Source: Paenacidovorax monticola (GTDB taxonomy: Bacteria; Pseudomonadota; Gammaproteobacteria; Burkholderiales; Burkholderiaceae_C). From it: 64,000 nucleotides of DNA. The position numbers were made by a program, and so were the translations under genes. The notes beneath the pieces are model-generated. The model was not told the origin of the DNA, did no database searches, and saw only the letters and a list, made by a program, of their open reading frames with translations. This document shows, piece after piece, positions 19,506 through 51,254 of the stretch; position 1 is the first letter of the stretch; the number at the start of each line of letters is the position of its first letter. The stretch is taken from NCBI RefSeq assembly GCF_014489595.1, contig NZ_CP060790.1, forward strand, positions 4,092,001 through 4,156,000. Direction: 5' to 3'.

Positions 19506-20285
19506 ATGCCGCTGCAGTTCCAGCCCGTTGCCTCCGGCGCCCGCCTGGCCGATCAGGTCGCCGACGCGCTCGCCACCGAAATCCGCAGCGGCCGGCTGGA
19601 GCCGGGCGCACGCCTGCCCACCGAGGCCGTGCTGGCCTCCCAGTTCGCCGTCAGCCGCACCGTGGTGCGCGAAGCCGTGTCGCGGCTCAAATCGCTGGAG
19701 CTGGTCGATTCGCGGCAGGGCAGCGGCGTGTACGTGCGCGCGGCGGGGGCCGAGCCGCTGCGCTTTGAGGGCGCACACCTGGAGTCGCGTGAGGCCGTGA
19801 TCCACATGGCCGAGCTGCGCCGCCCGCTGGAATCCGAGGCCGCGGGCCTGGCCGCCGAGCGCCGCACCGATGCCGACGTGGCGCGCATCCGCGCCGCCAT
19901 CGGCGCCCTGGAGCAGGCCGTGGCCAGCGGCCACAGCGGCGCGGAGCAGGATGTGGCCTTCCACCTGGCGATCGCCAGGGCCGCGCACAACCCGTTCCTC
20001 ATGGGCACGCTGCAGTACCTGCACAGCTTTCTGCAGGGCGCCATCCGCGTCACGCGTGCCAACGAGGCGCGCCGCGACGACTTCGCCCGTGAGGTGGCCG
20101 ATGAGCATGCCCGCATCGCCGATGCCATCGAGGCCGGCGATCCGCTGGCCGCGCGCGAGGCCGCCAAACGGCACATGGACAACGCGATCCGCCGCATCGG
20201 GACGGCCGATTCGGCGTTCTGGCAGCAGGAGGGTGCGCGCCTGGCGCGTCCGCTCGTGGAGGGATATCCGCCGCGCTCTCACTGA
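19506..20285 (+). CDS. GntR family (FCD/FadR subfamily) transcriptional regulator
   Basis: A 259-residue repressor-type regulator. The winged helix is at LEPGARLPTEAVLASQFAVS and RTVVREAVSRLKSLELV, and the effector-binding FCD domain starts around MAELRRPLESEAAGLAAERR. FCD metal/ligand His residues lie in AFHLAIARAAHNPF and AKRHMDNAI. It sits directly in front of the tetronate operon in the same direction. A palindrome in the gap (20342-20366) is its likely operator. A clear paralogue lies 15 kb away (35111-35929) next to the same motif. The natural effector is probably one of the pathway acids, an inference from context. Confidence 0.88.
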   Translation: MPLQFQPVASGARLADQVADALATEIRSGRLEPGARLPTEAVLASQFAVSRTVVREAVSRLKSLELVDSRQGSGVYVRAAGAEPLRFEGAHLESREAVIHMAELRRPLESEAAGLAAERRTDADVARIRAAIGALEQAVASGHSGAEQDVAFHLAIARAAHNPFLMGTLQYLHSFLQGAIRVTRANEARRDDFAREVADEHARIADAIEAGDPLAAREAAKRHMDNAIRRIGTADSAFWQQEGARLARPLVEGYPPRSH

Positions 20286-20341
20286 CGCGATCGCGGGAAA
20301 CGGGGGCGTCAGGGTTAGTCCGCATCGGTGAAATGCGCTCA

Positions 20342-20366
20342 AATTTGTATGATGACATGACAAATT
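20342..20366. promoter_or_regulatory. FCD-type operator before ltnD
   Basis: Perfect seven-base arms AATTTGT and ACAAATT flank an 11 bp centre (ATGATGACATG). It stands about 110 bp before ltnD, in the gap after the GntR gene. The ten-mer ATTTGTATGA within it recurs at 35034 and 35987, both beside genes of the same functional block. Confidence 0.65.
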
Positions 20367-20475
20367 AATCGTCTGACAGATGGCATCCCTGGGCCGCTCG
20401 CCGGTGCTGGGCACCGCAGGGGCATGGCTCATGCCCAGGACGCTCGTCAACCGCTGAACCCGAAAGGAGCACCGC

Positions 20476-21369
20476 ATGGGCAACCCACCGCGTCCCCGCG
20501 TCGGCCTCGTGGGCCTGGGTGCAATGGGCCTGGGCATGGCACAGTCGCTGCGCCGCGCCGGCCATGCACCCCATGTGTTCGATGTGCGCCGCGATGCTGC
20601 GCAGGCCTTCGCCCAGGAGGGCGGTACCGCCTGCGAGACGCTGGCCGAATTGGGCGCGCGCTGCGACGTGGTGGTCTCGGTGGTCGTCAATGCGGCGCAG
20701 ACGGACGCCGTGCTGTTCGGCGAGGACAGCCTGGCCGCCCACATGCGGCCCGGCAGCCTGTTCGTGATGTGCTCCACCGTTGACCCCCACTGGTCCGTGG
20801 CGCTGGAGGCGCGCCTCGCGCAGCGGGGCATCCTGTACCTGGACGCACCGATCTCCGGCGGCGCCGCCAAGGCTGCCAGTGGCCAGATGACCATGATGAC
20901 CGCCGGCACACCCGCAGCCTATGCCCGCGCGGGCGGCGTGCTCGACGCCATGGCGGCCAAGGTGTACCGCCTGGGCGACAAGGCGGGGGCTGGCAGCAAG
21001 GTGAAGGTCATCAACCAACTGCTGGCCGGCGTGCACATCGCCGCCGCGGCCGAGGCCATGGCGCTGGGCCTGCGCGAGGGCGTGGACCCCGCGGCGCTCT
21101 ACGACGTGATCACCCACAGCGCGGGCAACAGCTGGATGTTCGAAAACCGCATGGCCCACGTGCTGGCGGGGGACTACACGCCGCTGTCGGCCGTGGACAT
21201 CTTCGTGAAGGACCTGGGGCTGGTGCTCGACGTGGCGCGCACCAGCAAGTTCCCGCTGCCGCTCTCGTCCACCGCGCACCAGATGTTCATGCAGGCCTCC
21301 ACCGCCGGCTTCGCGCGCGAGGACGACAGCGCGGTCATCAAGATCTTCCCGGGCATCACGCTGCCCTGA
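20476..21369 (+). CDS. ltnD: L-threonate 2-dehydrogenase LtnD
   Basis: NAD-dependent beta-hydroxyacid-dehydrogenase-family enzyme that oxidises L-threonate to 2-oxo-tetronate. 297 residues with the Rossmann motif GLVGLGAMGLGMAQSL, the substrate-binding DAPISGGAAKAASGQM block and the catalytic Lys in GSKVKVINQLLAGVH. The start follows AAAGGAG. First gene of a run with DenD, OtnK, OtnC and OtnI, which is what separates it from other family members such as GarR or GlxR. Confidence 0.88.
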   Translation: MGNPPRPRVGLVGLGAMGLGMAQSLRRAGHAPHVFDVRRDAAQAFAQEGGTACETLAELGARCDVVVSVVVNAAQTDAVLFGEDSLAAHMRPGSLFVMCSTVDPHWSVALEARLAQRGILYLDAPISGGAAKAASGQMTMMTAGTPAAYARAGGVLDAMAAKVYRLGDKAGAGSKVKVINQLLAGVHIAAAAEAMALGLREGVDPAALYDVITHSAGNSWMFENRMAHVLAGDYTPLSAVDIFVKDLGLVLDVARTSKFPLPLSSTAHQMFMQASTAGFAREDDSAVIKIFPGITLP

Positions 21370-21388
21370 ACCCCCAAAGGACCTTTCC

Positions 21389-22402
21389 ATGCACATCCTC
21401 ATCACCGGCGGCTGCGGCTTTCTGGGCGCGCGCCTGGCGCGCACCCTGCTTGCCCAGGGCAGCCTCGCCCTGGCAGGCGCGCCCGCGCAGCCCCTTGCGC
21501 GCGTGGTGCTGGCCGACCGCGTGGCCCCGCCCGCCGACCTGCAGGCCGATGCGCGCGTGCAGTCCATCCAGGGTGACCTGGGCGAGCAGCTTGCCGGCGG
21601 CGCGCTGCCGCTGGCCGAGGTGCAGGCCGTGTTCCACTTGGCGGCGGCCGTGAGCGGCGAGTGCGAGGCCGATTTCGATCTGGGCATGCGCAGCAACCTC
21701 GACGCCACGCGGCAACTGCTGGAAGGCTGCCGCCGCGCGGGCCACGCGCCGGTGTTCGTGTTCTCCAGTTCGGTCGCGGTGTTCGGCGATTCGCCCGAGC
21801 AGCGCCTGCCCGCCGTGATCGAGGACACCTCGCTGCCCACGCCGCAAAACAGCTACGGCATCCAGAAGTTCATCGGCGAACAGCTCGTGGCCGACTACAC
21901 GCGCAAGGGCTTCGTGCAGGGCCGCAACGTGCGCCTGATGACGGTGAGCGTGCGCCCGGGCCGTCCGAACGGCGCGGCCTCCAGCTTCCTCTCGGGCATG
22001 CTGCGCGAGCCGCTGGCCGGCGAACGCGCGCGCTGCCCCGTGGCGCCAGAGACGGCCGTAGCGCTCTCGTCGCCCGGCAACACGGTGCGCGGCATTCTCC
22101 GCGCGGCCACGGCCAGCAGCGCCGAATGGGGCGCGCGCACCGCCGTGAACCTGCCCGCGCTCACCACCACCGTGGGCGAAATGGCCCAGGCGCTGGAGCG
22201 CGTGGCGGGCAAGGAGGCCACCGCACTCATCGACTGGGAGCCCGATGCGCAGGTCGCCAAGATCATCACGGGCTGGCCCAGCCGTTTTGCGCCGAAGCGC
22301 GCCCTGGCCCTGGGCCTGGCGGCCGACGAGAGCTTCGAGGCCATCCTGCGCGACTACGTGCGCGAGAACCCGCAGGCCGTGAGGCTTGCGGTGAAGGGTT
22401 GA
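21389..22402 (+). CDS. denD: D-erythronate 2-dehydrogenase DenD
   Basis: An extended-SDR, NAD-dependent-epimerase-like enzyme of 337 residues, expected to oxidise D-erythronate to 2-oxo-tetronate. The nucleotide-binding motif is ITGGCGFLGARLARTLL. The catalytic Ser-Tyr-Lys set is visible as VFSSSVAVFG and NSYGIQKFIGE. Its pairing with ltnD and otnKCI matches the tetronate clusters described with the DUF1537 kinases, which supports the specific name. On sequence alone, only an SDR dehydrogenase or epimerase could be stated. Confidence 0.85.
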   Translation: MHILITGGCGFLGARLARTLLAQGSLALAGAPAQPLARVVLADRVAPPADLQADARVQSIQGDLGEQLAGGALPLAEVQAVFHLAAAVSGECEADFDLGMRSNLDATRQLLEGCRRAGHAPVFVFSSSVAVFGDSPEQRLPAVIEDTSLPTPQNSYGIQKFIGEQLVADYTRKGFVQGRNVRLMTVSVRPGRPNGAASSFLSGMLREPLAGERARCPVAPETAVALSSPGNTVRGILRAATASSAEWGARTAVNLPALTTTVGEMAQALERVAGKEATALIDWEPDAQVAKIITGWPSRFAPKRALALGLAADESFEAILRDYVRENPQAVRLAVKG

Positions 22403-22414
22403 AGGGAGATGGCT

Positions 22415-23677
22415 ATGGGCCAACTGCGGCTGGGCTGCATCGCCGACGACTTCACGGGTGCCACCGACCTCGCCAATAACCTCGTGCGCGCGGGCATGCG
22501 CGTGGTGCAGGCCATCGGCGTGCCTGCCGGGCCGCTGGCGGCCGACGTGGACGCCGTGGTGGTCGCACTCAAGTCGCGCACCATTCCCCCTGCCGAAGCC
22601 ATCGAGCAATCGCTGGAAGCGTTGTGCTGGCTGCAGGCACAGGGGGCACGCCAGATTTACTTCAAATACTGCTCCACCTTCGACAGCACCCCGGCGGGCA
22701 ACATCGGCCCCGTGACCGAGGCGCTGATGGATGCGTTGGGCTGCGACTTCACCATCGCTACCCCTGCCTTCCCGGACAACAAGCGCACCGTGTTCAAGGG
22801 CTACCTGTTCGTGGGCGACGTGCTGCTCAACGAGAGCGGCATGCAGAGCCACCCGCTTACGCCCATGGCCGACCCCAACCTCGTGCGCGTGATGCAGGCG
22901 CAGTGCCGGCGCAAGGTGGGCTTGATCGACCACGCCGTGGTGGCGCGCGGCGCGGCGGCCGTCACCGAGCGCATCGCGCAGCTCCAGGCCGAAGGCGTGT
23001 CCATCGCCATCGTCGATGCCGTCTCCAACGACGACCTGCTGCGCATGGGGCCCGCGCTCGCGGCGCTGCCGCTGGTCACGGCGGGCTCGGGCGTGGCGAT
23101 CGCGCTGCCAGCCAACTTTGGCCTGGCGCCGTCACCGGCTGCGAGCGGGCTGCCCCCCAAGGGCGGCCTGCGCGCCGTGGTGTCGGGCAGTTGTTCGCTG
23201 GCGACCCACCGGCAGGTGCGCGACTTCATCGCGCGCGGCGGCGCGGCGCTGGCCATCGACCCGCTGCGCATTGCCGAAGGCGCCGATGTGGCGGCCGAGG
23301 CGCTCGCCTGGGCCTTGCCGCTGCTGGAGCGCGGCCCCGTGCTGGTCTATTCCACGGCCGATAGCAGCGCGGTGAAGTCCGTGCAGTCGCGCCTGGGCGT
23401 GGAAGAGGCCGGCGCGATGGTGGAGCGCACCATCGCAGCCATCGCGCGCGGCCTCGTGGAGCGCGGCGTGCGCCAGCTCGTGGTGGCGGGCGGCGAGACC
23501 TCGGGCGCCTGTGTGCAGGCCCTCGCCATCACGCAGATGCAGATCGGCCCGCAGATCGACCCCGGCGTGCCGTGGTGCCATGCGCAGGCGCTCGGCCAGG
23601 GCCTGCACATCACACTCAAATCCGGCAACTTCGGCGGCGACGACTTCTTCACGCGCGCCTTCGAGGTGCTCGCATGA
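22415..23677 (+). CDS. otnK: 3-oxo-tetronate kinase OtnK (DUF1537 family)
   Basis: Phosphorylates 3-oxo-tetronate at C4 with ATP. 420 residues. The N-terminal substrate domain has the IADDFTGATDLANNL and FKYCSTFDSTPAGNIGP motifs, and the C-terminal nucleotide domain has VVAGGETSGACVQAL and KSGNFGGDDFF. Two in-frame ATGs lie six bases apart. The second is chosen because GGGAG abuts the first but stands six bases before the second. The end overlaps otnC by four bases. A second, divergent DUF1537 kinase occurs at 31790. Confidence 0.9.
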   Translation: MGQLRLGCIADDFTGATDLANNLVRAGMRVVQAIGVPAGPLAADVDAVVVALKSRTIPPAEAIEQSLEALCWLQAQGARQIYFKYCSTFDSTPAGNIGPVTEALMDALGCDFTIATPAFPDNKRTVFKGYLFVGDVLLNESGMQSHPLTPMADPNLVRVMQAQCRRKVGLIDHAVVARGAAAVTERIAQLQAEGVSIAIVDAVSNDDLLRMGPALAALPLVTAGSGVAIALPANFGLAPSPAASGLPPKGGLRAVVSGSCSLATHRQVRDFIARGGAALAIDPLRIAEGADVAAEALAWALPLLERGPVLVYSTADSSAVKSVQSRLGVEEAGAMVERTIAAIARGLVERGVRQLVVAGGETSGACVQALAITQMQIGPQIDPGVPWCHAQALGQGLHITLKSGNFGGDDFFTRAFEVLA

Positions 23678-24335
23678 ACGAGACCCTGGCGCGCGAAGAG
23701 ATCTGCCGCGTTGGCCGCAGCCTGTTCGAGCGCGGCTACGCGCACGCCACGGCGGGCAACATCAGCGTGCGGCTCGACGATGGCTTCCTTATCACGCCCA
23801 CCGATGCCTGCCTGGGCTTTCTCGACCCGGCGCGCCTGGCGCGCCTGGACGCGCAGGGCCGGCAGTTGAGCGGCGACCGCGCGAGCAAGACGATCGCGCT
23901 GCACACGCGCATCTACGCCGCCGCGCGCACCTTTGACGCGCAGACCGCCTGCGTGATCCATACGCACAGCACGCACTGCGTGGCCCTCACATTGCGGCCC
24001 ACGGGGGCGAGCTGCTGCAGCCCCTCACGCCGTACTTCGTGATGAAAGTGGGCCATGTGCCCGTGGTCCCCTACCACCGCCCCGGCGCGCCCGAGGCCGC
24101 CGAGGCCGTGGCCCAGGCCATCGCGCGCTATGGTGAACAAGGCACACCGCTGCGCGCCGTGGTGCTGGAGCGCCTGGGGCCCAATGTGTGGCACGACAGT
24201 CCTGCCGCCGCCATGGCCACGCTGGAGGAACTGGAGGAGACCGCCAGGCTGTGGCTGTTGTCCTCGCCGCCGCCCGCCGCACTGGATGCGGCGCAGATCG
24301 ATGAACTGCGCGGCGCCTTCGGCGCACGCTGGTAA
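23674..24335 (+). CDS. otnC: 3-oxo-tetronate 4-phosphate decarboxylase OtnC (one frameshift)
   Basis: A class II aldolase/adducin-family metal enzyme that decarboxylates 3-oxo-tetronate 4-phosphate to dihydroxyacetone phosphate. About 220 residues after one base is restored in the CCC at 23998-24000. Blocks: [19 protein letters not shown], the metal-binding [13 protein letters not shown], then in the next frame [16 protein letters not shown] and [10 protein letters not shown]. The break falls between the zinc-site HTH and the next helix, so an uncorrected protein would be dead. The rest of the pathway is intact, which argues for a sequence error. Confidence 0.87.
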
Positions 24336-24349
24336 GGGAGAGTGAGAAC

Positions 24350-25207
24350 ATGCCCCGCTTCGCCGCCAACCTGTCCATGCTCTACGGCGAGCATGCCTTC
24401 CTCGACCGCTTCGCCGCCGCCGCCGCGGACGGCTTCAAGGGCGTCGAATACCTGTTCCCCTACGAATTCCCCGCTGCCGAAATCGCCAAGCGCCTGCAGG
24501 ACAACGGCCTGGAGCAGGTGCTGTTCAATGCTCCGCCCGGCGATTGGGGCGCGGGCGAGCGCGGCCTGGCCTGCCTGCCCGGGCGCGAGGCCGAGTTCCG
24601 CGACGGCTTTGCGCGCGCGCTGGACTACGCCGCCACGCTCGACTGCCCGCGCATCCATGTGATGGCCGGCCTCGTGCCCGCAGGCCAGACGCGCGAGGCG
24701 CTGCGACCTGTCTACGTGGGGAACCTGCGCTGGGCCGCCGAGCAGGCCGCGCGCGCGGGGCGCAACGTGCTGATCGAGCCGATCAACACGCGCAACATCC
24801 CCGGTTTCTTCCTGAACCGCCAGGACGACGCGCACGCCATCGTCCAGGCCGTGGGCGCACCCAATCTGCAGGTGCAGTTCGACCTGTACCACTGCCAGAT
24901 CGTCGAGGGCGATGTGGCGATGAAGATCCGCCAGTACCTGCCTACGGGCCGCGTCGGCCACTTCCAGATCGCGGGCGTGCCCGAGCGGCACGAGCCCGAC
25001 ATCGGCGAGCTGAATCACCCTTACCTGTTTTCGGTCATCGACGAGGTGGCCGCGCAGTGCGGCTGGCAGGGCTGGGTGGGTTGCGAGTACCTGCCGCGCC
25101 GTGGCGCGGAGCCCGGCGGCACCAGTGCGGGCCTGGGCTGGCTGCGCACGAGGATGCAAGCGGCGGAAAGCCCCTTTCCCCCAGCCCGGGAAAACCCCGG
25201 AATCTAA
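24350..25207 (+). CDS. otnI: 2-oxo-tetronate isomerase OtnI
   Basis: A TIM-barrel enzyme of the hydroxypyruvate isomerase/AP-endonuclease 2 superfamily that converts 2-oxo-tetronate to 3-oxo-tetronate. 285 residues. The visible blocks are [45 protein letters not shown] and [13 protein letters not shown], with the metal-binding Glu, Asp and His residues. The last 20 or so residues (after GWLRTRMQA) extend past the usual end and are low in structure. It closes the tetronate operon; the next gene has its own operator. Confidence 0.88.
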
Positions 25208-25242
25208 AGTGATGTACTCATCATACCATTACACCATCACTT
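25207..25242. promoter_or_regulatory. Inverted repeat before the apionate oxidoisomerase gene
   Basis: Eight-base arms AAGTGATG and CATCACTT are separated by 20 bp. Nested inside is TGATG-TACT-CATCA, and the bottom strand carries GTATGATG as in the other FCD-type sites of the cluster. It lies 17 bp before the coding start and has no T-run, so an operator is more likely than a terminator. Confidence 0.55.
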
Positions 25243-25258
25243 AACTGGAGTAGACACG

Positions 25259-26086
25259 ATGACGAGCATTGCCCTGTTCGGTGCGGGTGGCAAGATGGGT
25301 GTGCGGCTGGCGAAGAACCTGCAAGGTTCCCGCTTCGAGGTGCGGCATGTCGAGGTGGGAGAGGTGGGCCGCAAGCGCCTGCAGGACGAACTGGGCATCC
25401 GCTGCGTGGACGAGGCCACGGCCCTCCTCGGGGCCGATGTGGTGATCCTGGCCGTGCCCGACACGCTGATCGGCAAGATCGCCGCCGCCATTGCGCCGCA
25501 GCTGGCGGCGGGGACCATGGTGATGCTGCTGGACGCCGCCGCGCCGTTCGCCGGCCACCTGCCTGACCGGCCGGACCTGACCTACTTCGTGGCCCACCCC
25601 TGCCACCCGCCGATCTTCAGCGCCGACCTGCGCAAGAACGGCGTGCCCGACTTCTTCGGCGGCGGTCATGCGCCCCAGTCCGTCGTCAGCGCGCTGATGC
25701 AGGGGCCGCAAGAGGCATTCGCGCTGGGCGAGGAAGTCGCCCAGGCCATCTATGCGCCCATCCTGCGCTCGTACCGCGTGACGGTGGAGCAGATGGCGTT
25801 GCTGGAACCCGGCCTGTCGGAAACCGTCTGCGCCACGCTGCTCGACGTGATGCGCGAGGCGATGGACGAGGTGGTAAGCCGCGGCGTGCCGCACGAGGCC
25901 GCGCGCGACTTCCTGCTGGGCCACATGACCATCTTGAGCGCAGTGATCTTCAAGGAGATCCCGGGCCAGTTCTCCGACGCATGCAACAAGGCCATCACCT
26001 TCGGCAAGCCACGGCTGATGAAGGAGGACTGGCTCAAGGTGTTCGACCGCGAAGAGATCGCCGAGAGCATCCAGCGCATCACCTGA
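25259..26086 (+). CDS. apnO: D-apionate oxidoisomerase-like dehydrogenase (ApnO family)
   Basis: A 275-residue NAD-dependent enzyme. The N-terminal Rossmann domain (SIALFGAGGKMGVRLAKNL; ADVVILAVPDTLIGKI) is followed by a phosphogluconate-dehydrogenase-C-like domain (FVAHPCHPPIFSAD; EQMALLEPGLSETVCATL; FLLGHMTILSAVIFKE). In described apiose pathways this family oxidises and isomerises D-apionate to 3-oxo-isoapionate. The same cluster contains a RuBisCO-like protein and a second DUF1537 kinase, which are the next two steps of that route. The name rests on family plus context. Confidence 0.75.
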   Translation: MTSIALFGAGGKMGVRLAKNLQGSRFEVRHVEVGEVGRKRLQDELGIRCVDEATALLGADVVILAVPDTLIGKIAAAIAPQLAAGTMVMLLDAAAPFAGHLPDRPDLTYFVAHPCHPPIFSADLRKNGVPDFFGGGHAPQSVVSALMQGPQEAFALGEEVAQAIYAPILRSYRVTVEQMALLEPGLSETVCATLLDVMREAMDEVVSRGVPHEAARDFLLGHMTILSAVIFKEIPGQFSDACNKAITFGKPRLMKEDWLKVFDREEIAESIQRIT

Positions 26087-26188
26087 GGCCTGGCCTCGCC
26101 GCCTTTCCAGCCGCCGCGCGATGCACCGGCACAGGTGCACGCAAGACGCCTTTCACCGCGCCCCTCGTCAACCACAAGGAGACATACC

Positions 26189-27169
26189 ATGACGATCCGC
26201 TCCACCCTGCGCACGGCCCTGGCCGGCGCTCTGCTTTCCGCCCTGGCGGGCGGCGCCTTCGCCCAGACCGTGATCAAGATCGGCTACACGCCTCCCCTGA
26301 ACTCGCACTACGGGGCGGGGGCGGTCACGTTCTGCGGTGAGGTCGAGAAGGGCACCCAGGGCCGCTACAAGTGCCAGCAGTTCCCCAGCTCCGCGCTGGG
26401 CGGTGAGCGCGAGCAGATCGAGGCGGTGCAGATCGGCACGCAGGACGCGGTGATCACATCGACCGGCCCCGTGGGCAACTTCGTGCCCGAAATCAAGATC
26501 GTCGACATTCCCTTCCTGTTCCGCGACTACGACCACGCGCGCAAGGTGTTCGACGGTCCGATCGGCCAGGACCTGCTGACCAAGTTCCCGAGCAAGGGCC
26601 TGATCGCCCTGGCGTGGACGGAGAACGGCTTTCGCCACATCACGAACAGCAAGCGCCCCATCCTCAAGCCCGAGGATGCCAAGGGCCTGAAGGTGCGCAC
26701 CATGGAGAACAAGGTGCACATGGACGGCTACCGCACCTTCGGACTGCTGCCCACGCCGATGTCGTTCCCCGAAGTGTTCGGCGCCCTGCAGCAAGGCACG
26801 GTGGACGGGCAGGAGAACCCGATCCCGATCATCACCTCGTCCAAGTTCTCGCAGGTGCAGAAGTACCTGTCGCTGACGGGCCATGTCTATTCGCCGGCGC
26901 TGCTGCTACTGTCACCCCGGATCTGGAACAAGCTGTCGGATGCCGACAAGAAGGTGTTCACCGAGGCCGCCAAGGCCAGCGTGGTGGCGCAGCGCAAGAA
27001 GGTGGACGAAGACGACGCCAGCGGCGTCGCCCAGCTCGAGAAGGAAGGCATGCAGGTCGTGCGCAATGTCGACAAGAAGGCCTTCCAGGATGCCTTGAAG
27101 CCGGCCTACGTGGCGTACGCCAAGGAATTCGGCGAAGCCAACATCAAGAAGATCCAGGACGTGAAGTAA
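26189..27169 (+). CDS. TRAP transporter substrate-binding protein DctP-type
   Basis: The periplasmic binding component of a tripartite ATP-independent uptake system. 326 residues with a signal peptide (LRTALAGALLSALAGGAFAQ) and the DctP fold. The conserved Arg that pairs with a carboxylate is in GLKVRTMENKVHMD, and FPEVFGALQQGTVDGQENP is the family signature. A stem with TGCACC/GGTGCA arms lies at 26122-26139 in the preceding gap. It probably binds an acid sugar such as apionate or a tetronate, given its neighbours. Confidence 0.92.
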   Translation: MTIRSTLRTALAGALLSALAGGAFAQTVIKIGYTPPLNSHYGAGAVTFCGEVEKGTQGRYKCQQFPSSALGGEREQIEAVQIGTQDAVITSTGPVGNFVPEIKIVDIPFLFRDYDHARKVFDGPIGQDLLTKFPSKGLIALAWTENGFRHITNSKRPILKPEDAKGLKVRTMENKVHMDGYRTFGLLPTPMSFPEVFGALQQGTVDGQENPIPIITSSKFSQVQKYLSLTGHVYSPALLLLSPRIWNKLSDADKKVFTEAAKASVVAQRKKVDEDDASGVAQLEKEGMQVVRNVDKKAFQDALKPAYVAYAKEFGEANIKKIQDVK

Positions 27170-27185
27170 GCACGCAGCAGCCCCG

Positions 27186-27215
27186 CCGGGCGGGCGCAGC
27201 CGTGCGCCGTCCGGC
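27186..27215 (+). repeat. Stem-loop between TRAP binding-protein and membrane genes
   Basis: CCGGGCGGGCGC can fold back on GCGCCGTCCGG around a short loop, with only a weak T stretch after it. Such hairpins often lower expression of membrane genes relative to the abundant binding protein. Confidence 0.4.
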
Positions 27216-27242
27216 CCTTTCCCCTCCGTCCGAGCACACTCC

Positions 27243-27755
27243 ATGCAGACCTTCGAACGCTACCTGCTCGCCGCGAACCGCTGGGCCCTGATCCTGCTGC
27301 TGGCGGCCATGTCGGTGATCATCTTCACCAACGTCGTGATGCGCTACGTCACGCACGACTCGCTCGAATGGGCCGAGGAAGTGGCGCGCCACATGATGAT
27401 CTGGCTCACCTTCCTGGGCGCCGGCCCCGTGCTGCGCTACGGCGGCCACATCGCCGTGGAGAACCTCCAGGACGCCCTGCCGCGCGCCGGCGGCATCGCG
27501 TTGCGCGTGGTGGTGGCCGGCCTGCTGTTCTCCTTCTTCGGCTTCATGGTCTGGTACGGGTGGCTCTACATGCAGCGCACCCTGTTCCAACTGACCCCGG
27601 TCACCCAGATCCCGTTCGCCTACATCTACAGTGCCATGGCCATCGGCGGCCTGCTGCTGATCGTCCATTTCCTGCTGATGGTGCGCGGCTATGTGCTGCA
27701 CCGCGAGTTCGCGGCCGACGACCATTTCGACGCCAACGCGAGTGCCTCCCTATGA
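27243..27755 (+). CDS. TRAP transporter small membrane protein DctQ-type
   Basis: The four-helix subunit of the TRAP transporter, 170 residues. Helices are seen at ALILLLAAMSVIIFTNVVMR, the EEVARHMMIWLTFLGAGPV region, RVVVAGLLFSFFGFMVWYG and YIYSAMAIGGLLLIVHFLL. Ends within the start of the large subunit gene (ATGA overlap), so the two are coupled. Confidence 0.9.
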   Translation: MQTFERYLLAANRWALILLLAAMSVIIFTNVVMRYVTHDSLEWAEEVARHMMIWLTFLGAGPVLRYGGHIAVENLQDALPRAGGIALRVVVAGLLFSFFGFMVWYGWLYMQRTLFQLTPVTQIPFAYIYSAMAIGGLLLIVHFLLMVRGYVLHREFAADDHFDANASASL

Positions 27756-29047
27756 GCGTTTCCTTCATCCTCATCTTCTCGGCCTGCCTTTACCTGGCGA
27801 TCGGCGTGCCGGTGGCCTTTGCCCTGGGGCTGGCCACGGCCACCACGCTGATCCTGGCGGAAAACTACCCGCTGATGGTGCTGCTCAAGGAGACCTTCAC
27901 GGGCATCGACTCCTTCCCGCTGATGGCCGTGCCGTTCTTCATCCTGGCCGCCGAACTCATGAGCGGTGGCTCGCTGACCGAGGTGCTGCTGCGCTTCGCC
28001 GGCCAGTTCGTCGGGCACAAGCGCGGCGGCCTGGGCTACACGAACGTGGTGTCGCTGACCTTCTTCTCGGGCATCTCGGGATCGGCGCTGGCCGATGCGG
28101 CGGGGCCGGGGTCGATGCTGATCCGCATGATGGACAAGGCGGGGTACGACCGCTCGTACGCGGCGGCGCTGACGGCATCCACCGCCATCGTCGGACCCAT
28201 CATTCCGCCCTCCATCATCATGATCATCTATGCGCTGCAGGATGAGTCGGTGTCGGTGGGCGCGCTGTTCGTGGCGGGCGTGCTGCCGGGCATCCTGATC
28301 GCCGTGGCGATGTGCCTGGTCAACTTCCACATATCGAAGCAGCGCAACTACCGGGGCGAGGGGCGGATGCCGCCGCTCTCGGAGATCCTGCGCACGACCT
28401 GGAAGGCACTGCCGGCCATCATGCTGCCGGTGGTGATCCTCGGCGGCATGCGCGCGGGCTGGTTCACGCCGACCGAGGCTTCTGTGGTGGCGGTGTTCTA
28501 TGCGCTGGTGTGCGGAAAGTTCGTCTACCGCACGCTGCAGTGGCAGGCGCTGCCGGAAATCCTCTCCAAGTCGGCGCTGCTGTCCGCCTCGGTGCTGATC
28601 ATCATCGGCCTGTCGGCCTCCTTTGCCTGGGTGCTGACGATCGAAGGGATCCCCCAGCAGATGGCCGAGTGGCTGATCTCGATGGATCTCTCGCCCTGGA
28701 TGTTCCTGGTGCTGGTGAACATCTTCCTGCTGCTGTTCGGCATCTTCATCGAGCCGCTGCCCGGCGTGATGGTGCTCGCGCCGATCCTGGCGCCGGTGGC
28801 TGCGAAGCTGGGCGTCGATCCCGTGCACTTCGCGATGATCGTGATCTACAACCTCACGCTGGGCATGATCACGCCGCCTGTCGGCGGCCTGCTGTTCGTG
28901 ACCTGCAACGTCTCGCGCGTGCCCATGACGCAGCTGGTCCGGGAGCTGATGCCCTTCCTCTGGGCGCACGGTGTCGTTCTCGTGCTGCTGACTTTCGTGC
29001 CTGCCTTCTCCACCTGGCTTCCCAAAGTCTGGGGCTTCATCAAGTAG
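27752..29047 (+). CDS. TRAP transporter large membrane protein DctM-type
   Basis: The sodium-coupled transport subunit of the TRAP system. 431 residues with about a dozen hydrophobic helices. Family blocks are FFILAAELMSGGSLTEVLL, GISGSALADAAGPGSMLIR, GPIIPPSIIMIIYAL and LTLGMITPPVGGLLFVTCN. It works with the DctP and DctQ proteins encoded just upstream. Confidence 0.94.
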   Translation: MSVSFILIFSACLYLAIGVPVAFALGLATATTLILAENYPLMVLLKETFTGIDSFPLMAVPFFILAAELMSGGSLTEVLLRFAGQFVGHKRGGLGYTNVVSLTFFSGISGSALADAAGPGSMLIRMMDKAGYDRSYAAALTASTAIVGPIIPPSIIMIIYALQDESVSVGALFVAGVLPGILIAVAMCLVNFHISKQRNYRGEGRMPPLSEILRTTWKALPAIMLPVVILGGMRAGWFTPTEASVVAVFYALVCGKFVYRTLQWQALPEILSKSALLSASVLIIIGLSASFAWVLTIEGIPQQMAEWLISMDLSPWMFLVLVNIFLLLFGIFIEPLPGVMVLAPILAPVAAKLGVDPVHFAMIVIYNLTLGMITPPVGGLLFVTCNVSRVPMTQLVRELMPFLWAHGVVLVLLTFVPAFSTWLPKVWGFIK

Positions 29048-29086
29048 CCCCCGGCTCCCGCAACCTCTTCCAAGGACCGACCTTCC

Positions 29087-30535
29087 ATGAGCATCGCGCG
29101 CCACCACTTGAACTTCATCGACGGTGAGCACCGCCCGGCCCGATCGGGACAGACCCTCGACGTGATCGACCCGGCCGACGGCCAGGTGTTCACCGACATC
29201 CCGCGCAGTGCGGCCGACGACGTGGACGACGCCGTGCGCGCCGCCAAGGCCGCGTTCCATGGCGCATGGGGCCGGCAGACGGCCACCGAGCGCGGCCGCG
29301 TCCTGATGAAGCTGTCGCAGGCCATCCTCGCCCACCAGGAGGCGCTGGCCGAACTGGAGTGCCGCGACACCGGCAAACCGCTGACGCAGGCCCGCGCAGA
29401 CATCGCGGCCTGCGCGCGCTACTTCGAGTACTACGCGGGTGCCGCCGACAAGCTGCACGGCGAGACCATTCCCTACACCGCGGGGACCACGGTGATGGCG
29501 ATCCGCGTGCCGCACGGCGTCACGGGCCACATCATTCCGTGGAACTATCCCGCGCAGATTTTCGGCCGTTCGGTCGGTGCGGCACTGGCTGCTGGCAACG
29601 CCTGCGTGGTCAAGCCTGCGGAGGATGCCTGCCTCACGCCGCTGCGCGTCGCGGCGCTGGCCCTCGAATGCGGCCTGCCGCGCGGTGCGCTCAACGTGGT
29701 CTGCGGCCTGGGCAGCGAAGCCGGCGCGGCCCTGGCGGCCCACCCGGGCATTGCCCACATCTCCTTCACCGGATCGACCCAGACCGGCGCCGCAGTGGCC
29801 GAGGCGGCCGCGCGCCGCCACATCCCAGTGACGTTGGAGCTGGGCGGCAAGTCGCCCCAGATCGTCTTCGCCGACGCCGATCTGGAGCAGGCCATTCCCG
29901 TGGTGGTCAACGCCATCATCCAGAGCGCAGGCCAGACCTGCACGGCCGGAAGCCGCGTGCTGATCGAGCGGCCGGTCTACGGCGAGGTGGTGGCGGCCAT
30001 TGCCAAGCGCTTTCAAGCGCTGCGTGTCGGCCCGGGCATGCAGGACCTGGAGGTCGGCCCGCTGGTCAACCGCAAGCAGCAGCAGAAGGTGAAGGCCATG
30101 GTGGACGCGGCCGAGGCCGACGGCATCCGCGTCGCCGCGCGCGCGCAGCTTGCCGAAGGCGCGCCCGCGGAGGGCTGCTACGTGCTGCCCACCCTGCTGG
30201 CCGAGGTGCCCGCCAGCCACTCCATTGCCCAGGACGAGATCTTCGGCCCCGTGCTCTGCGCCATCGCATTCGACACCGAGGCCGAGGCCATCGAGATCGC
30301 CAATGGCACCGACTATGGCCTTACGGCCGGTGTCTGGACGCGCGACGGCGCTCGCCAGATGCGCCTGGCCCACGCCATCGAGGCCGGGCAGATCTTCATC
30401 AACAACTACGGCGCGGGCGGGGGCATCGAGCTGCCGTTCGGCGGCATGAAGCATTCGGGCTACGGGCGCGAGAAGGCGTTCGAAGGCCTGCGCGGTTTCA
30501 CCACCATCAAGACGATTGCGATCAAACATGGCTGA
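29087..30535 (+). CDS. NAD(P)-dependent aldehyde dehydrogenase
   Basis: A 482-residue enzyme of the general aldehyde dehydrogenase superfamily. Catalytic Cys285 is in GQTCTAGSR and the general base Glu251 in LELGGKSPQ. The cofactor block is IIPWNYPAQIFGRSVGAALA. The C-terminal EIFGPVLCAIAF and PFGGMKHSGYGREK blocks are complete. It overlaps the RuBisCO-like gene by eight bases, so it belongs to the same transcript. The substrate is unknown. Candidates from context are D-apiose, a route to apionate, or a small aldehyde such as glycolaldehyde. Confidence 0.88.
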   Translation: MSIARHHLNFIDGEHRPARSGQTLDVIDPADGQVFTDIPRSAADDVDDAVRAAKAAFHGAWGRQTATERGRVLMKLSQAILAHQEALAELECRDTGKPLTQARADIAACARYFEYYAGAADKLHGETIPYTAGTTVMAIRVPHGVTGHIIPWNYPAQIFGRSVGAALAAGNACVVKPAEDACLTPLRVAALALECGLPRGALNVVCGLGSEAGAALAAHPGIAHISFTGSTQTGAAVAEAAARRHIPVTLELGGKSPQIVFADADLEQAIPVVVNAIIQSAGQTCTAGSRVLIERPVYGEVVAAIAKRFQALRVGPGMQDLEVGPLVNRKQQQKVKAMVDAAEADGIRVAARAQLAEGAPAEGCYVLPTLLAEVPASHSIAQDEIFGPVLCAIAFDTEAEAIEIANGTDYGLTAGVWTRDGARQMRLAHAIEAGQIFINNYGAGGGIELPFGGMKHSGYGREKAFEGLRGFTTIKTIAIKHG

Positions 30536-31796
30536 CCACGCCAGCTTCGATTCGCCCGACGACCGTATCCACGCCTGGTACTGGCTCGAAACCGGCGATG
30601 ACCCGCAACGCGCCGCCGAGGTGATCGCGGGCGAGCAGTCCAGCGGCACGTTCACCGCCGTGCCGGGCGAGACGCCCGCGCTCAAGGAGCGTTCGGGCGC
30701 GCGCGTCGAAGGCCTGGAGATCCTCGGTGTGGCCGACCAGCCGAGCCTTCCCGGCGGCATGGCCGGTGCGCGCTACAAACACTGCCGACTGCACCTGTCG
30801 TGGCCGCTCGCCAACCTGGGGCCATCGCTGCCCAACCTGATGGCCACGGTGGCCGGCAATCTGTTCGAGCTGCGGCAGGTCTCGGGCCTGCGGCTGCTGG
30901 AGCTGCGGCTGCCCCCGGCCTTCGCCGAGCACTGCCCCGGCCCGGCCTTCGGCATCGAGGGCACGCGGCGCCTGTCGGGCGTGCACGGCCGGCCGTTGAT
31001 CGGCACCATCATCAAGCCCAGCGTGGGCCTGTCGCCGCAGGAAACGGCCGCCACGGTGCGGCTGCTGGTCGATGGCGGCATCGACTTCATCAAGGACGAC
31101 GAGCTGCAGGCCGACGGGCCGCACTGTCCCTTCGACGAGCGGGCGCGCGCCGTGATGGCTGTGGTTCATGACGCCGCGCAACGCACGGGGCGCCAGGCCA
31201 TGGTGGCCTTCAACATCACCGGCGACCTCGACGAGATGCGCCGCCGCCACGACCTCGTGCAGGCGCTGGGCGGCACCTGCGTGATGGTGACGCTCAACGC
31301 CATCGGCCTCGCCGGGCTGCTGGCCCTGCGCAAGCATGCGCAGTTGCCCATCCACGCGCACCGCGCCGGCTGGGGCTACCTGAGCCGCAGCCCCGCGCTG
31401 GGCTGGGACTACGCACCCTGGCACCTGTTCTGGCGCTTGGCGGGGGCGGATCATCTGCACGTCAACGGCCTGGCCAACAAGTTCAGCGAGAGCGACGCCA
31501 GCGTGGCCGAAGCCGCGCGCGCGGTGCTGCGGCCCGTGTTTGCTGCCCAACCGATGGCTGCGATGCCGGTGTTCAGCTCCGGCCAGACCGGCCTGCAGGC
31601 CGCGCCCACCTATGCGGCCGTGGGCAGCACCGATCTCATCCATGCCGCCGGCGGCGGCATCCTGGGCCACCCGGGCGGCATCCCGGCCGGCGTGGCGGCG
31701 ATGCGGCAGGCCTGGGACGCCGCCATCGCAGGCATTCCCATCGGGCAGCATGCACAGGCCCACCCGGAGCTGCGCGCCGCGCTGGGCGTATGGTGA
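30528..31796 (+). CDS. oiaX: RuBisCO-like protein, probable 3-oxo-isoapionate-4-phosphate transcarboxylase/hydrolase (OiaX)
   Basis: A form IV RuBisCO-like protein of 422 residues. The active-site features include Lys163 in GTIIKPSVGLS (RuBisCO Lys175), the carbamate-type Lys189 with Asp191 and Glu192 in GGIDFIKDDE (Lys201/Asp203/Glu204), and H276-A-H278-R in PIHAHRAGWGY. Also present are H309/H311 and Lys318 in DHLHVNGLANKF (loop 6 Lys334), and GGGILGHPGGIPAG. RuBisCO Lys177 is replaced by Ser165, and the SGG phosphate loop reads SSGQ, so it is not a CO2-fixing enzyme. The known family member OiaX splits 3-oxo-isoapionate 4-phosphate into 3-phosphoglycerate and glycolate. The adjacent kinase and ApnO-type gene support this. 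Confidence 0.8.
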   Translation: MADHASFDSPDDRIHAWYWLETGDDPQRAAEVIAGEQSSGTFTAVPGETPALKERSGARVEGLEILGVADQPSLPGGMAGARYKHCRLHLSWPLANLGPSLPNLMATVAGNLFELRQVSGLRLLELRLPPAFAEHCPGPAFGIEGTRRLSGVHGRPLIGTIIKPSVGLSPQETAATVRLLVDGGIDFIKDDELQADGPHCPFDERARAVMAVVHDAAQRTGRQAMVAFNITGDLDEMRRRHDLVQALGGTCVMVTLNAIGLAGLLALRKHAQLPIHAHRAGWGYLSRSPALGWDYAPWHLFWRLAGADHLHVNGLANKFSESDASVAEAARAVLRPVFAAQPMAAMPVFSSGQTGLQAAPTYAAVGSTDLIHAAGGGILGHPGGIPAGVAAMRQAWDAAIAGIPIGQHAQAHPELRAALGVW

Positions 31797-33201
31797 GCGA
31801 AGCCCCCTCTGCGCGCCCTGGCTGGCCGCCAGGCCTGCTGCTGGCCTACTACGGCGACGACTTCACGGGGTCGACCGACGTGCTCGAGGCCTTCACTGCC
31901 GCTGGCGTGTCCACGGTGCTGTTCCTCAAGGCACCCGACGCAGCAGCCCTGGAGCGCTTTCCCGGCGTGCGCTGCGTCGGCCTGGCGGGCCAGTCGCGAG
32001 GGCGCTCGCCACAGTGGATGCGCGAGCACCTCGCTTCGGACCTGCAGGCGCTGGCGCGGCTTGGCGCGCCGCTGCTGCAGTACAAGGTCTGCTCCACGTT
32101 CGACTCGTCTCCCGCCGTCGGATCGATCGGCTGTGCGCTCGATCTGGGTGTGCCGCTGATGGCCGGCGCCTGGTCGCCCATGATCGTCGGTGCGCCGCGG
32201 CTGGGGCGCTACCAGGCTTTCGGCAACCTGTTTGCCGTGGCGAGTGGAGAAGGCTGGCGGCTTGACCGCCACCCCACCATGTCGCGCCATCCAGTCACGC
32301 CGATGCACGAGGCCGACCTGCGCCACCATCTCGGTGCGCAGACCTCGCGGCCCCGGCACCTCGTGGATTTCACGCAGCTCAAGGCCGGCCAGGGGCCGGC
32401 CGCGCTGGAGCGGCTGACGCGGAATGCTCCGCAAACGCCCGTCGTGCTCATCGATGTGCTGGACGAGGACACCCTGCGCGAAGCCGGGCGCCTGGTGTGG
32501 GAGCAGCGTGGGGCGGGCCTGTTCTGCGCGTCATCGTCGGGCCTGCAGTACGCGTTGGCTGCGCACTGGCGCGCGGCGGGCCTGCTGCCGCCCGCAGCCG
32601 TGCTGTCCGCGATGGGGCCCGCCTCCGGCCCATCGCGGCGGTGAGCGGCAGTTGTTCGCCCGTCACCGCCCGCCAGATCGCGCGCGCCGAGGCCGCTGGC
32701 TTCGCCACGGTGCGGCTGCAGTTGGCGGCCTTGTTTGCCGACGCTGAGGCAGAGATCCGCCGCGCCGTGGCGGCCGCCGGCCAGGCCCTTGCCGATGGGG
32801 TCAGCCCGCTGGTCTACACCGCATCGGGCCCCGATGACCCGGCCGTGCGCGCTTTCGACGCTACCGCGGCCGAGGCCGGCCTTGCGCGCGGCGAGGCCGC
32901 CCGGCGCACGGGGGAGGCCCTGGCGCAGGTGATGCGCCGGTTGCTCGACCAGACGCCGGGCTTGCGACGCATCGCCGTGGCGGGGGGGGACAGTTCGGGC
33001 GAGGTCGCGGCCTCGCTCGGCATCGAAGCCCTGACCGTGACCGCGGCGCTGGCGCCTGGCGCGCCACTGTGCCGTGCCTGGTCGTCCGATGCACGGCGCG
33101 ATGGGCTGGAGATCGTCCTCAAGGGCGGGCAGATGGGCGGTGAGGACTTTTTTCCCGTGGTGCGGGATGGCGTGCTTTCCCCCGTCCCGCGGTTCGGATA
33201 A
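31790..33201 (+). CDS. oiaK: DUF1537 acid-sugar kinase, probable 3-oxo-isoapionate kinase (OiaK; one frameshift)
   Basis: About 470 residues after one base is restored in CCC 32629-32631. N-terminal substrate domain: AYYGDDFTGSTDVLEAF and YKVCSTFDSSPAVGSIG. C-terminal nucleotide domain in the second frame: AAVSGSCSPVTARQIARAEA, IAVAGGDSSGEVAASLG and KGGQMGGEDFFPVV. It overlaps the RuBisCO-like gene by seven bases. It is clearly diverged from OtnK in the substrate pocket region, where OtnK has PAFPDNKRTVFKGYLF and this protein has MIVGAPRLGRYQAFGNLF. Expected to phosphorylate 3-oxo-isoapionate for the RuBisCO-like protein. Confidence 0.78.
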
Positions 33202-33209
33202 TGTGAGGT

Positions 33210-33932
33210 ATGCAATCCACAGGCCCCATCCAGAAACGCAAGCTGTACCAGGACGTGGTGGACCGCCTCATGCAGCGCATCCAGAGCGGCGAAATCCAGC
33301 CTGGCGATCAGTTGCCGCCCGAGCGCGAACTGATGGACCAGTTCGGCGTCGGCCGGCCCGCTGTCCGCGAAGCGCTCCAGTCCATGGAGCGCTCCGGCAT
33401 CCTGGAAATTTCGCACGGCGAGCGTGCGCGCGTGGTCGTGCCCACGGCGGACGGGCTGATCCGGCAAATGGCCAGCGGCGCGCGGCACCTGCTCAACACC
33501 CAGCCCGACACGCTGGAGCATTTGAAACAGGCGCGCATTTTCCTCGAAGCCGGCATGGCCCGGCTGGCGGCGCAGAACGCCACGCAGCAGGACGTGGGCC
33601 TGCTGCGCCAGCGCATCGAGGAGCAGCGTGCCTCGCTCTCGACGCTGGAGCAGTTCCTGGTGTGCGACATGGCATTCCACCGGGAGGTTGCACGCATCAG
33701 CGGCAACCCGATCTTCCCGGCCATCGTCGAAGCCATCTTCCGTTGGAGCAGCGATTACTACGAGCCGCTGGTGCGTGCGCCCGGCGCGGAGCGGGTCACG
33801 CTGGTCGAGCACGCGCTGCTGGTCGATGCGATCGAGGCGCACGACGGCGACGCGGCCGAGGCCGCGCTGCGCGCCCACTTGACGCGTTCTAACGAGCTGT
33901 ACACGCGCATCGAGCAGGAGCGCAAGGCTTAG
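33210..33932 (+). CDS. GntR family (FCD/FadR subfamily) transcriptional regulator
   Basis: A 240-residue regulator that ends the apionate-type operon, nine bases after the kinase. Winged helix: QPGDQLPPERELMDQFGVG followed by RPAVREALQSMERSGILE. The FCD domain includes HLKQARIFLEAGMARLAA and the His residues in DMAFHREVARISGN. It differs from the other two FCD regulators here in the recognition helix (GVGRPAVREAL versus VSRTVVREAV), so it may read a different operator. Its 3' end overlaps the convergent dehydrogenase by four bases. Confidence 0.87.
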   Translation: MQSTGPIQKRKLYQDVVDRLMQRIQSGEIQPGDQLPPERELMDQFGVGRPAVREALQSMERSGILEISHGERARVVVPTADGLIRQMASGARHLLNTQPDTLEHLKQARIFLEAGMARLAAQNATQQDVGLLRQRIEEQRASLSTLEQFLVCDMAFHREVARISGNPIFPAIVEAIFRWSSDYYEPLVRAPGAERVTLVEHALLVDAIEAHDGDAAEAALRAHLTRSNELYTRIEQERKA

Positions 33933-35014
33933 AGCCTGGCGCAAATCGCGGCTGTCATCTCCGTGCAGGTGGCTTGGCCTCCGAGGTCGCGCGGGATCAC
34001 CTTGCCCTCGGCAAGCACTGCTTCGGTGGCCGCCTCGATGCGCCCTGCAGCCTCGGTGAGGCGTTTGTCGCCGTGCCGGTCGCCCAGCCAGCGCAGCATG
34101 AGCGCGCCCGACAGGATGGTCGCTACCGGGCTGGCCAGGTTCTGTCCCGCGATGTCGGGAGCCGATCCATGTGCGCCCTGGAACAGGCCGTGGTGCTCGC
34201 CCACCTCAGCCGATGCGGCGATGCCCAGGCCGCCCACGGTGCCCGCGCCCAGGTCGGAGATGATGTCTCCAAACATGTTCTCGGCCACGATCACGTCGTA
34301 AAAGTCGGGCTTCTTGAGCATGTGCACCGTGATCGCATCGGCGTAGGCGTAGTCGATCTCGACGTCCGGGTAGTCGGCCTTGACCTCGTCGCACACTGCG
34401 CGGAAGAACGCATAGGTGCGCAGGATGTTGGCCTTGTCGCATACCGTTACGCGGCGCTTGCCATCGCGCGGTGCGCCGCTCCGCTTGCGTGCCAGGTCGA
34501 ACGCGAAGCGGGCCACGCGCTCGGTGCCCTTGCGGGTGACCACCAGCGAGTCGGTGACGACTTCGCCGCGCAGGTTCACGCCCGCGCCCCGGCTGGCATA
34601 CAGGCCCTCGGTGTTCTCCCGGATGATCACGTAGTCGATACGGCCGGGCGGAAACCCGCGCAGCGGCGACTGTGCGCCTGCATACAACCGGATCGGCCGC
34701 ACGTTGGCGAACAGGTCGAGCTTGAAGCGCAGCTGCAGATGCAGGTCGTTGCCCACCTCGGTACCGTCGGGGTAGGTCACACCCGGCAGGCCCGCTGCAC
34801 CGTGCAGGATGGCGTGTGCCGAGCGGCAGGCTTCGTAGGTGTCCTGCGGCAGCACTTGTCCGGTCTTCACGTAATGGCTGGCGCCGCCGTCGCGCGGATC
34901 GAATCGCAGCAGGTCCTTGCCGCAGGCCCGGGCGAGCACCTCGACCGCTGCCTGGCAGACCTCGGGGCCGATGCCGTCGCCGTCGATCGTGACGATGTGA
35001 TAAGGGGTAGTCAT
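33929..35014 (-). CDS. Isocitrate/isopropylmalate-family dehydrogenase (tartrate dehydrogenase-like)
   Basis: A metal- and NAD-dependent decarboxylating dehydrogenase of 361 residues. Blocks: [20 protein letters not shown] at the N-terminus, [15 protein letters not shown] (substrate Arg/Glu loop), [14 protein letters not shown] and [15 protein letters not shown], with [12 protein letters not shown] near the end. The family covers isocitrate, 3-isopropylmalate, homoisocitrate and tartrate/D-malate dehydrogenases. Outside a leucine operon and among hydroxyacid genes, a tartrate/D-malate-type substrate is the best guess. The ATG gives the natural [14 protein letters not shown] start. An FCD-type operator lies 20-50 bp upstream. 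Confidence 0.8.
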
Positions 35015-35032: not shown

Positions 35033-35062
35033 AATTTGTATGACAAATATATAGGACAAATT
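35033..35062. promoter_or_regulatory. FCD-type operator before the tartrate dehydrogenase-like gene
   Basis: ATTTGT-ATG-ACAAAT is a perfect short palindrome at 35034-35048. A further ACAAATT (35056-35062) also pairs with the left arm AATTTGT. It lies in the gap between the regulator gene and the dehydrogenase it precedes, and shares the ten-mer ATTTGTATGA with the sites at 20343 and 35987. Confidence 0.65.
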
Positions 35063-35986: not shown

Positions 35987-36009
35987 ATTTGTATGATGTA
36001 TTTGTCATA
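35987..36009. promoter_or_regulatory. FCD-type operator between divergent regulator and hydroxyacid dehydrogenase
   Basis: ATTTGTATGATG is followed by a TCATA that pairs with the TATGA inside it across eight bases. The site lies 28 bp before the hydroxyacid dehydrogenase start and 58 bp before the regulator start, in an AT-rich gap, so it can control both directions. Confidence 0.6.
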
Positions 36010-46203: not shown

Positions 46204-46206
46204 CAG

Positions 46207-49555: not shown

Positions 49556-49576
49556 GTTTTTAACTGGAATGATGAA

Positions 49577-51142: not shown

Positions 51143-51227
51143 CGTCTGGTGCATGGCCTGGGGATCAAGGAGTGGTACCCAGGCCATGTGATAGCCTCCA
51201 AGGCCTTGATTTGTTTTGATTGAAACC

Positions 51228-51254
51228 ATCCCCAGCTTGTCTGGGGATTTTTTT
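51228..51254 (+). terminator. Hairpin with T-run directly before aroK
   Basis: ATCCCCAG pairs with CTGGGGAT around CTTGT, and seven T run right up to the aroK ATG. It looks like a rho-independent terminator for the pilus-lipoprotein unit. The same GGGGA in the 3' arm is also the only Shine-Dalgarno-like sequence for aroK, at the correct spacing, so the hairpin may control aroK translation too. Confidence 0.75.

Follow-up and report, generated by a model that had tools for sequence, protein, structure and literature searches.

Does a genome in which the genes of two sugar-acid pathways stand end to end hold one functional unit or two unrelated neighbours? The question is raised by a cluster in Paenacidovorax monticola, which lies in a stretch of 64,000 nucleotides of contig NZ_CP060790.1 (assembly GCF_014489595.1, positions 4,092,001 to 4,156,000) that we refer to as the window and number from its first letter. 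Open frames and family searches of the window delimit a tetronate operon at 19506-25207 and an apionate-type operon at 25259-33932. The cluster is a genuine, recurring join of these two known pathways, that is, a known kind in a new variation, and we did not meet this layout in the open-access literature on apionate and apiose catabolism and RuBisCO-like proteins. The explanation we favour, with reasonable though not full confidence, is that two known sugar-acid pathways adjoin each other as two operons under separate control, with uptake probably in common.

A sequence-only reading of this locus had named the gene families and their order, both of which are borne out by Pfam and NCBIfam matches and the open frames (Table 1). 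It had also drawn attention to two DUF1537 kinases in one cluster; the whole genome has two PF07005 (DUF1537) genes and both are here. In the left half, LtnD, DenD, OtnK and OtnI were judged against NCBIfam equivalog cut-offs and all four exceed them. LtnD and DenD would oxidise L-threonate and D-erythronate, after which OtnI would isomerise, OtnK phosphorylate and OtnC decarboxylate the intermediates to give dihydroxyacetone phosphate. The full route to this product that had been claimed is present as far as its five genes are concerned, but OtnC is not open in this assembly.

In the right half, an imported acid, most likely D-apionate, would be rearranged by the ApnO-type oxidoisomerase to 3-oxo-isoapionate, phosphorylated by OiaK and then cleaved by a RuBisCO-like protein (RLP), for which transcarboxylase/hydrolase action is likelier than decarboxylation. 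No NCBIfam model named ApnO is among the matches, and the assignment in the window draws on PF16896 and the neighbourhood; ApnO was found in 32 of the 33 loci of the RLP clade, L145 being the miss. Relatives of the window OiaK at about 80% identity carry the NCBI name OiaK. The block extends to the right of 33932 as far as 38950, with an isopropylmalate/tartrate-type dehydrogenase (TDH), a second R1-type regulator, a 2-hydroxyacid dehydrogenase (HADH), a beta-hydroxyacid dehydrogenase (HIBADH) and a solute-binding protein.

Table 1. Genes and operator sites of the cluster, with positions in the window.
Feature	Position	Strand	Evidence
R1, GntR/FCD regulator, head of tetronate operon	19506..20285	+	Pfam FCD and GntR
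Inverted-repeat operator ATTTGTATGAT...ACAAAT before ltnD	20343..20365	+	half-site three times in genome
LtnD, L-threonate dehydrogenase	20476..21369	+	NF043037 472.2 bits, cut-off 350
DenD, D-erythronate dehydrogenase	21389..22402	+	NF043036 385.5 bits, cut-off 325
OtnK, 3-oxo-tetronate kinase (DUF1537)	22409..23677	+	NF043035 630.4 bits, cut-off 350
OtnC, 3-oxo-tetronate 4-phosphate decarboxylase, frameshifted	23674..24335	+	NF043034 pieces 136.9 + 64.9 bits, cut-off 250
OtnI, 2-oxo-tetronate isomerase	24350..25207	+	NF043033 381.5 bits, cut-off 325
Operator-like site of apionate operon, TCATCATACCATTACACCA	25218..25236	+	once in genome with at most 1 mismatch
ApnO-type D-apionate oxidoisomerase	25259..26086	+	PF16896 233.7 bits, cut-off 25
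DctP, TRAP solute-binding protein	26189..27169	+	TIGR00787 250 bits, cut-off 175.05
DctQ, TRAP small permease	27243..27755	+	PF04290 109.6 bits
DctM, TRAP large permease	27752..29047	+	TIGR00786 426.8 bits, cut-off 268.45
Aldehyde dehydrogenase (ALDH)	29087..30535	+	PF00171 533.4 bits; none at NCBIfam cut-off among 25 of 44 matches listed
RLP, probably 3-oxo-isoapionate-4-phosphate transcarboxylase/hydrolase	30528..31796	+	PF00016 219.6 bits; OiaX 440; tree
OiaK-type 3-oxo-isoapionate kinase (DUF1537), frameshifted	31790..33201	+	NF042436 pieces 474.0 + 253.6 bits; cut-off 700 applies to whole protein
R2, NanR-like FCD regulator	33210..33932	+	NF003011 (subfamily) 310.6 bits, cut-off 260
TDH, isopropylmalate/tartrate-type dehydrogenase	33932..35014	-	no NCBIfam cut-off reached; travels with HIBADH in relatives
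Second copy of ltnD-type operator, between TDH and R3	35034..35061	+	genome pattern scan
R3, FCD regulator, paralogue of R1	35111..35929	-	identity to R1
Third half-site ATTTGTATGAT, before HADH	35987..35997	+	genome pattern scan
HADH, 2-hydroxyacid dehydrogenase	36037..37002	+	PF02826/PF00389; best NCBIfam glyoxylate reductase, 260.3 bits, cut-off 455, not reached
HIBADH-like beta-hydroxyacid dehydrogenase	37051..37944	+	best NCBIfam 187.8 bits, cut-off 340.75, not reached
Solute-binding protein, presumably of Bug/TctC type	37979..38950	+	open frame; no NCBIfam family

What would the right half consume? A Microvirga protein whose score exceeds the cut-off of the ApnL model (899.2 bits against 750) has no match in the P. 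monticola genome at E<=1e-30, and at this threshold matches occur in one of the 45 RLP-bearing genomes of the family. With one Microvirga ApsD candidate as query, the best match in the genome has 25% identity over residues 2-85 of 342. Since ApnL and ApsD were not found, the substrate is probably an acid, D-apionate or similar, and not D-apiose, which had been among the substrates proposed for growth tests.

The join is not peculiar to this genome. Our family sample comprises 399 genomes, with RLP at E<=1e-60 in 45 and at a minimum of 60% identity in 25, P. monticola (G000) counted; 35 of the 45 also gave a match to OtnK. This gene lies at most 12.3 kb from RLP in seven of the 25 (G000, G061, G076, G173, G181, G188 and G251), which belong to four genera; the two operons of G188 are separated by 12 kb. 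In the remaining 18 the operons lie apart or do not share a contig, or no OtnK was detected. Among 80 named loci, OtnK, OtnC and OtnI stand just before RLP in three from alphaproteobacteria, namely Oceanicola (L106), Roseicyclus (L117) and an unclassified member (L124), with an R2-like regulator between the tetronate genes and RLP in L106 and L117; the L117 stretch ends at RLP. A neighbourhood survey for the joined arrangement had been proposed; the one made here recovers it both inside and outside the family. Over the ApnO-bearing rows of the RLP tree, with L027 scored manually as joined, the trait requires at least five changes. Because the join recurs, chance adjacency is disfavoured as a complete explanation.

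Are both halves under one control? The half-site ATTTGTATGAY occurs exactly three times in 4.68 Mb, every time in the cluster (reversed control, 0), and the fuller ltnD-type operator pattern twice. The half-site is also found in 11 of 18 tetronate loci of relatives (L063, L064, L150-L152, L154 and L156 are without it). It lies upstream of the first recognised operon gene, in many cases one for a regulator of the R1/R3 type, at a distance of 6-249 bases in ten of the 11 and of 1455 bases in L158. Among the 41 apionate-side or RLP loci scanned it occurs in L016 (genome G043) alone, within the TDH-HADH gap and 67 bases before HADH, in a genome whose two operons are on separate contigs. The site of the apionate operon, TCATCATACCATNANNCCA, differs from ATTTGTATGAY and occurs once in the genome; with at most two mismatches it precedes ApnO in 17 of 32 clade loci, with the reversed pattern in 0 of 32, and the Paraburkholderia loci are without it. 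R1 and R3 share 50.4% identity over 234 columns, while R2 has 26-30% to either; the ATTTGTATGAY site is probably the target of R1 and R3, and the ApnO site that of R2. A single operator for both halves, which we considered, is ruled out by the two different sites. Control is partly shared: the flanks, that is, ltnD and the right-hand genes, have a common site and the apionate middle has its own. The shared control motifs of the sequence-only reading hold for these flanks and fail for the apionate operon.

If the halves are controlled separately, what could connect them? The one transporter of the tripartite ATP-independent periplasmic (TRAP) type found in the block is a member of a family that occurs in both the tetronate and the apionate loci of relatives. 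We fetched 12 separate tetronate loci for comparison and four of these (L155, L156, L157 and L160) carry a DctP that is 67-76% identical to that of the window. On a DctP tree the tetronate-side and apionate-side proteins are mixed and do not form two groups: L157 has as its neighbours L027 and, from its own genome, L032, and L155 and L160 are placed beside L019 and L028, which come from the same pair of genomes. For L156 and L034, again loci of one genome, the DctM proteins pair but the DctP proteins do not. Pantoate is branched at C3, like apionate. A structural survey, in the part available to us, lists pantoate and erythronate among TRAP ligands (PMC5812351), and a passage of a second source describes TRAP proteins bound to pantoate or erythronate, where the ligands may be co-purified (PMC11668362). 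Given this mixed family and these ligand reports, common uptake is probably the best available link between the halves. It is better supported by the sequences than common intermediates, to which nothing points; the mixed sugar-acid diet that had been suggested beside them is plausible.

One result weighs against common uptake: on the tree, the DctP of the window clusters solely with proteins from the apionate side (support 95). ApnL or ApsD is present in none of 19 loci with this TRAP transporter versus 34 of 61 without it (Fisher P 5.8e-6), but a tree-aware test of the same association leaves three independent supported pairs and a sign test that is not significant; we do not lean on the association, since three pairs are too few for significance in that test. 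As a separate observation, L020-L024, all of them joined, have two DctP genes each and apparently one DctQ/DctM pair, as if a single permease served both binding proteins.

More tentatively, we can picture the tetronates and apionate, a branched tetronate, as a single nutrient class that is imported by one TRAP family exchanged between operons. The branches would then have been joined several times because uptake, and not an intermediate, is common to them, and the ALDH may feed both by oxidising C4 and C5 aldoses to acids. We regard this extension as possible rather than probable. ALDH at 55% identity or more is present in ten of the 80 loci with ApnO and kinase, six of which are among the eight with tetronate genes, a count that is uncorrected for kinship.

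A plainer account of the layout is that catabolic operons have come to neighbour each other without any functional link. Each half has its own site and its own regulator, as this account would have it, and 18 of the 25 sampled genomes with this RLP are not joined; yet the join is present in seven genomes of four genera and in three alphaproteobacterial loci, its five changes on the RLP tree are difficult to place under this account, and G043 carries the tetronate-type half-site at its apionate locus although its operons sit on separate contigs. We therefore consider the absence of a link rather unlikely. It is also conceivable, though we judge it unlikely, that the right half serves an acid other than apionate, with TDH, HIBADH and ALDH making 3-oxo-isoapionate from another precursor. 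Of the 80 loci with ApnO and kinase, 11 have both TDH and HIBADH and one has HIBADH alone; ApnL and ApsD are in none of these 12, and both dehydrogenases persist in Jiella (L098 and L112) at 52-73% identity, all of which would suit such a precursor. However, L020-L024, L028, L032 and L034 have TRAP and ApnO with no TDH or HIBADH in the stretch seen, and in the window TDH and HADH are at the tetronate-type site, not the ApnO site. Two linked operons, the second of them for apionate or a similar acid, remain our preferred reading.

Which reaction would the RLP of such an operon perform? Parts of one study describe two RLPs that act on 3-oxo-isoapionate 4-phosphate, one as a decarboxylase and the other as a transcarboxylase/hydrolase (PMC6302742). 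The window RLP reaches 440.4-440.5 bits with NF042437, the model of the decarboxylase OiaX, and misses its cut-off of 700, for which reason we rejected OiaX as its name. In a quick tree of 128 rows, with SH-aLRT support and no bootstrap, it falls within a 33-row Burkholderiales clade (SH-aLRT 99) and the two OiaX rows, L146 and L147, are placed apart; the Xanthobacteraceae RLPs L068-L075 lie within a wider clade of 108 rows. In a seven-row alignment it keeps Asn and His at positions that we take to be equivalent to N123 and H327 of RuBisCO and that are G and Q in both OiaX rows. LerI/DerI-type isomerases were found in one of 129 loci, the Rhizobium OiaX locus L146 that was the source of the queries. 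A transcarboxylase/hydrolase yields glycolate and 3-phosphoglycerate, and glyoxylate carboligase (Gcl) is present in the genome (1173.8 bits, cut-off 711.2). We consider transcarboxylation/hydrolysis the likelier reaction.

Several points tell against this assignment, which rests on exclusion and context. The Asn and His are also kept in the other four rows of the alignment, that is, in other RLP clades. The isomerases were sought in the flanks of loci, and their absence there is weak evidence because L147, also an OiaX locus, has none nearby. The best GlcD match, at 503.3 of 567.9 bits, is below its cut-off. If the RLP were an OiaX-type decarboxylase after all, the erythrulose phosphate would be used by isomerases encoded elsewhere. 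OiaX is indeed the best NCBIfam model for this protein, and the context of kinase and oxidoisomerase is the same as at OiaX loci; still, with the score so far short of 700 bits, the OiaX rows elsewhere on the tree, no LerI or DerI found in the window flanks and two residues kept that OiaX has lost, we doubt that it is one.

A further point against two working routes is that two of their genes are broken in this assembly, OtnC with a frame change near 24003-24024 and OiaK with one near 32581-32683. Were these true pseudogenes, the cluster would be decaying and neither route would work. The same assembly, however, splits other genes. The aroB gene (3-dehydroquinate synthase, 51764-52929) is split by a frameshift, its C-terminal domain matching up to model position 88 in one frame and over 92-144 in the next, where the second piece falls just short of its cut-off (27.1 of 27.6 bits); taken together, aroB and the further split genes suggest uncorrected assembly indels. 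A metallo-beta-lactamase-fold gene of the ODP family (39048-39877, - strand) changes frame near 39524-39548, the family search having covered its second piece alone. Elsewhere in the genome, two of seven GlcD-like and one of four Gcl-like genes (grouped by reading) consist of adjacent matches in different frames. Unbroken copies of both OtnC and OiaK exist: an intact OtnC of 220 residues (P0242) matches the window sequence as far as the break and has 100% identity to it over the 110 residues that follow, and 116 of 120 listed OiaK relatives have at least 440 residues. P0242 may come from the same or a near-identical strain. The breaks are most likely assembly indels, as aroB and other genes are split too, and both genes would be unbroken in this strain. 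On these grounds we set the pseudogenes aside, and decay of the cluster seems to us very improbable.

Some further observations concern other RLPs and the rest of the window. RLPs of 47-57% identity were set aside for their different context, which is a VOC protein in some and LysR and SDR genes in others. L042-L052 make up an RLP clade of their own (47-51% identity), accompanied by a DUF1537 kinase and a VOC-family protein, and would represent a further RLP pathway; the L042 kinase reaches 293 of 700 bits for OiaK, and an amino-acid-type ABC transporter is encoded at that locus. In L148, L149 and L057, where no ApnO was seen, RLP and a DUF1537 kinase stand with genes for an SDR dehydrogenase and a LysR regulator, which would be another RLP pathway. 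The window has a G+C content of 50-62% over 46001-52000 versus 64-71% elsewhere outside 42-46 kb; this stretch carries PilO/PilP/PilQ-type genes and then a protein of 521 amino acids with a putative Ig domain. No tRNA genes were found in the window, nor any Rfam match at the gathering threshold.

If our reading is right, the cluster points to a likely uptake route for apionate that is tied to threonate and erythronate. In the part of one source available to us, threonate is described as a major breakdown product of ascorbate (PMC12540250). The RLPs form a widespread group for which the sole apionate-type NCBIfam model matched is one whose cut-off they miss, and databases therefore name them ribulose-bisphosphate carboxylase large chains.

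How does the cluster compare with known systems? The window has each of the five genes of the L-threonate/D-erythronate pathway, and the four that are unbroken score above their equivalog cut-offs; here, by contrast, the operon has no transporter inside and directly precedes the apionate operon. The D-apiose catabolic loci described by Carter et al. in 2018 reportedly run ApsD-ApnL-ApnO-OiaK-RLP. Sets of RLP, OiaK and ApnO with a ribose-type ABC transporter, a Gfo/Idh/MocA dehydrogenase and an ApnL-type protein are found in Paraburkholderia sprentiae and Microvirga ossetica, and the window resembles such apiose-type loci in its ApnO-like oxidoisomerase, its OiaK-type kinase and a related RLP. 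It differs in that neither ApnL nor ApsD was found in the genome, in a TRAP transporter that replaces the ABC transporter, and in the added aldehyde dehydrogenase and the tetronate operon joined in front. With the Rhizobium type of OiaX locus it shares a homologous RLP adjoining a DUF1537 kinase and an ApnO-like gene, but the RLP stands at 440 of 700 bits and apart on the tree, with no LerI or DerI alongside. Finally, a structure model of DctP (mean pLDDT 58.2, from five sequences) was too weak for the binding site and served only to list solved relatives: the TRAP solute-binding proteins 4pdd, which is the nearest chain (516.1 bits), 4pdh, 4nq8 and 4p9k/4pak, whose ligands we take to be erythronate or pantoate.

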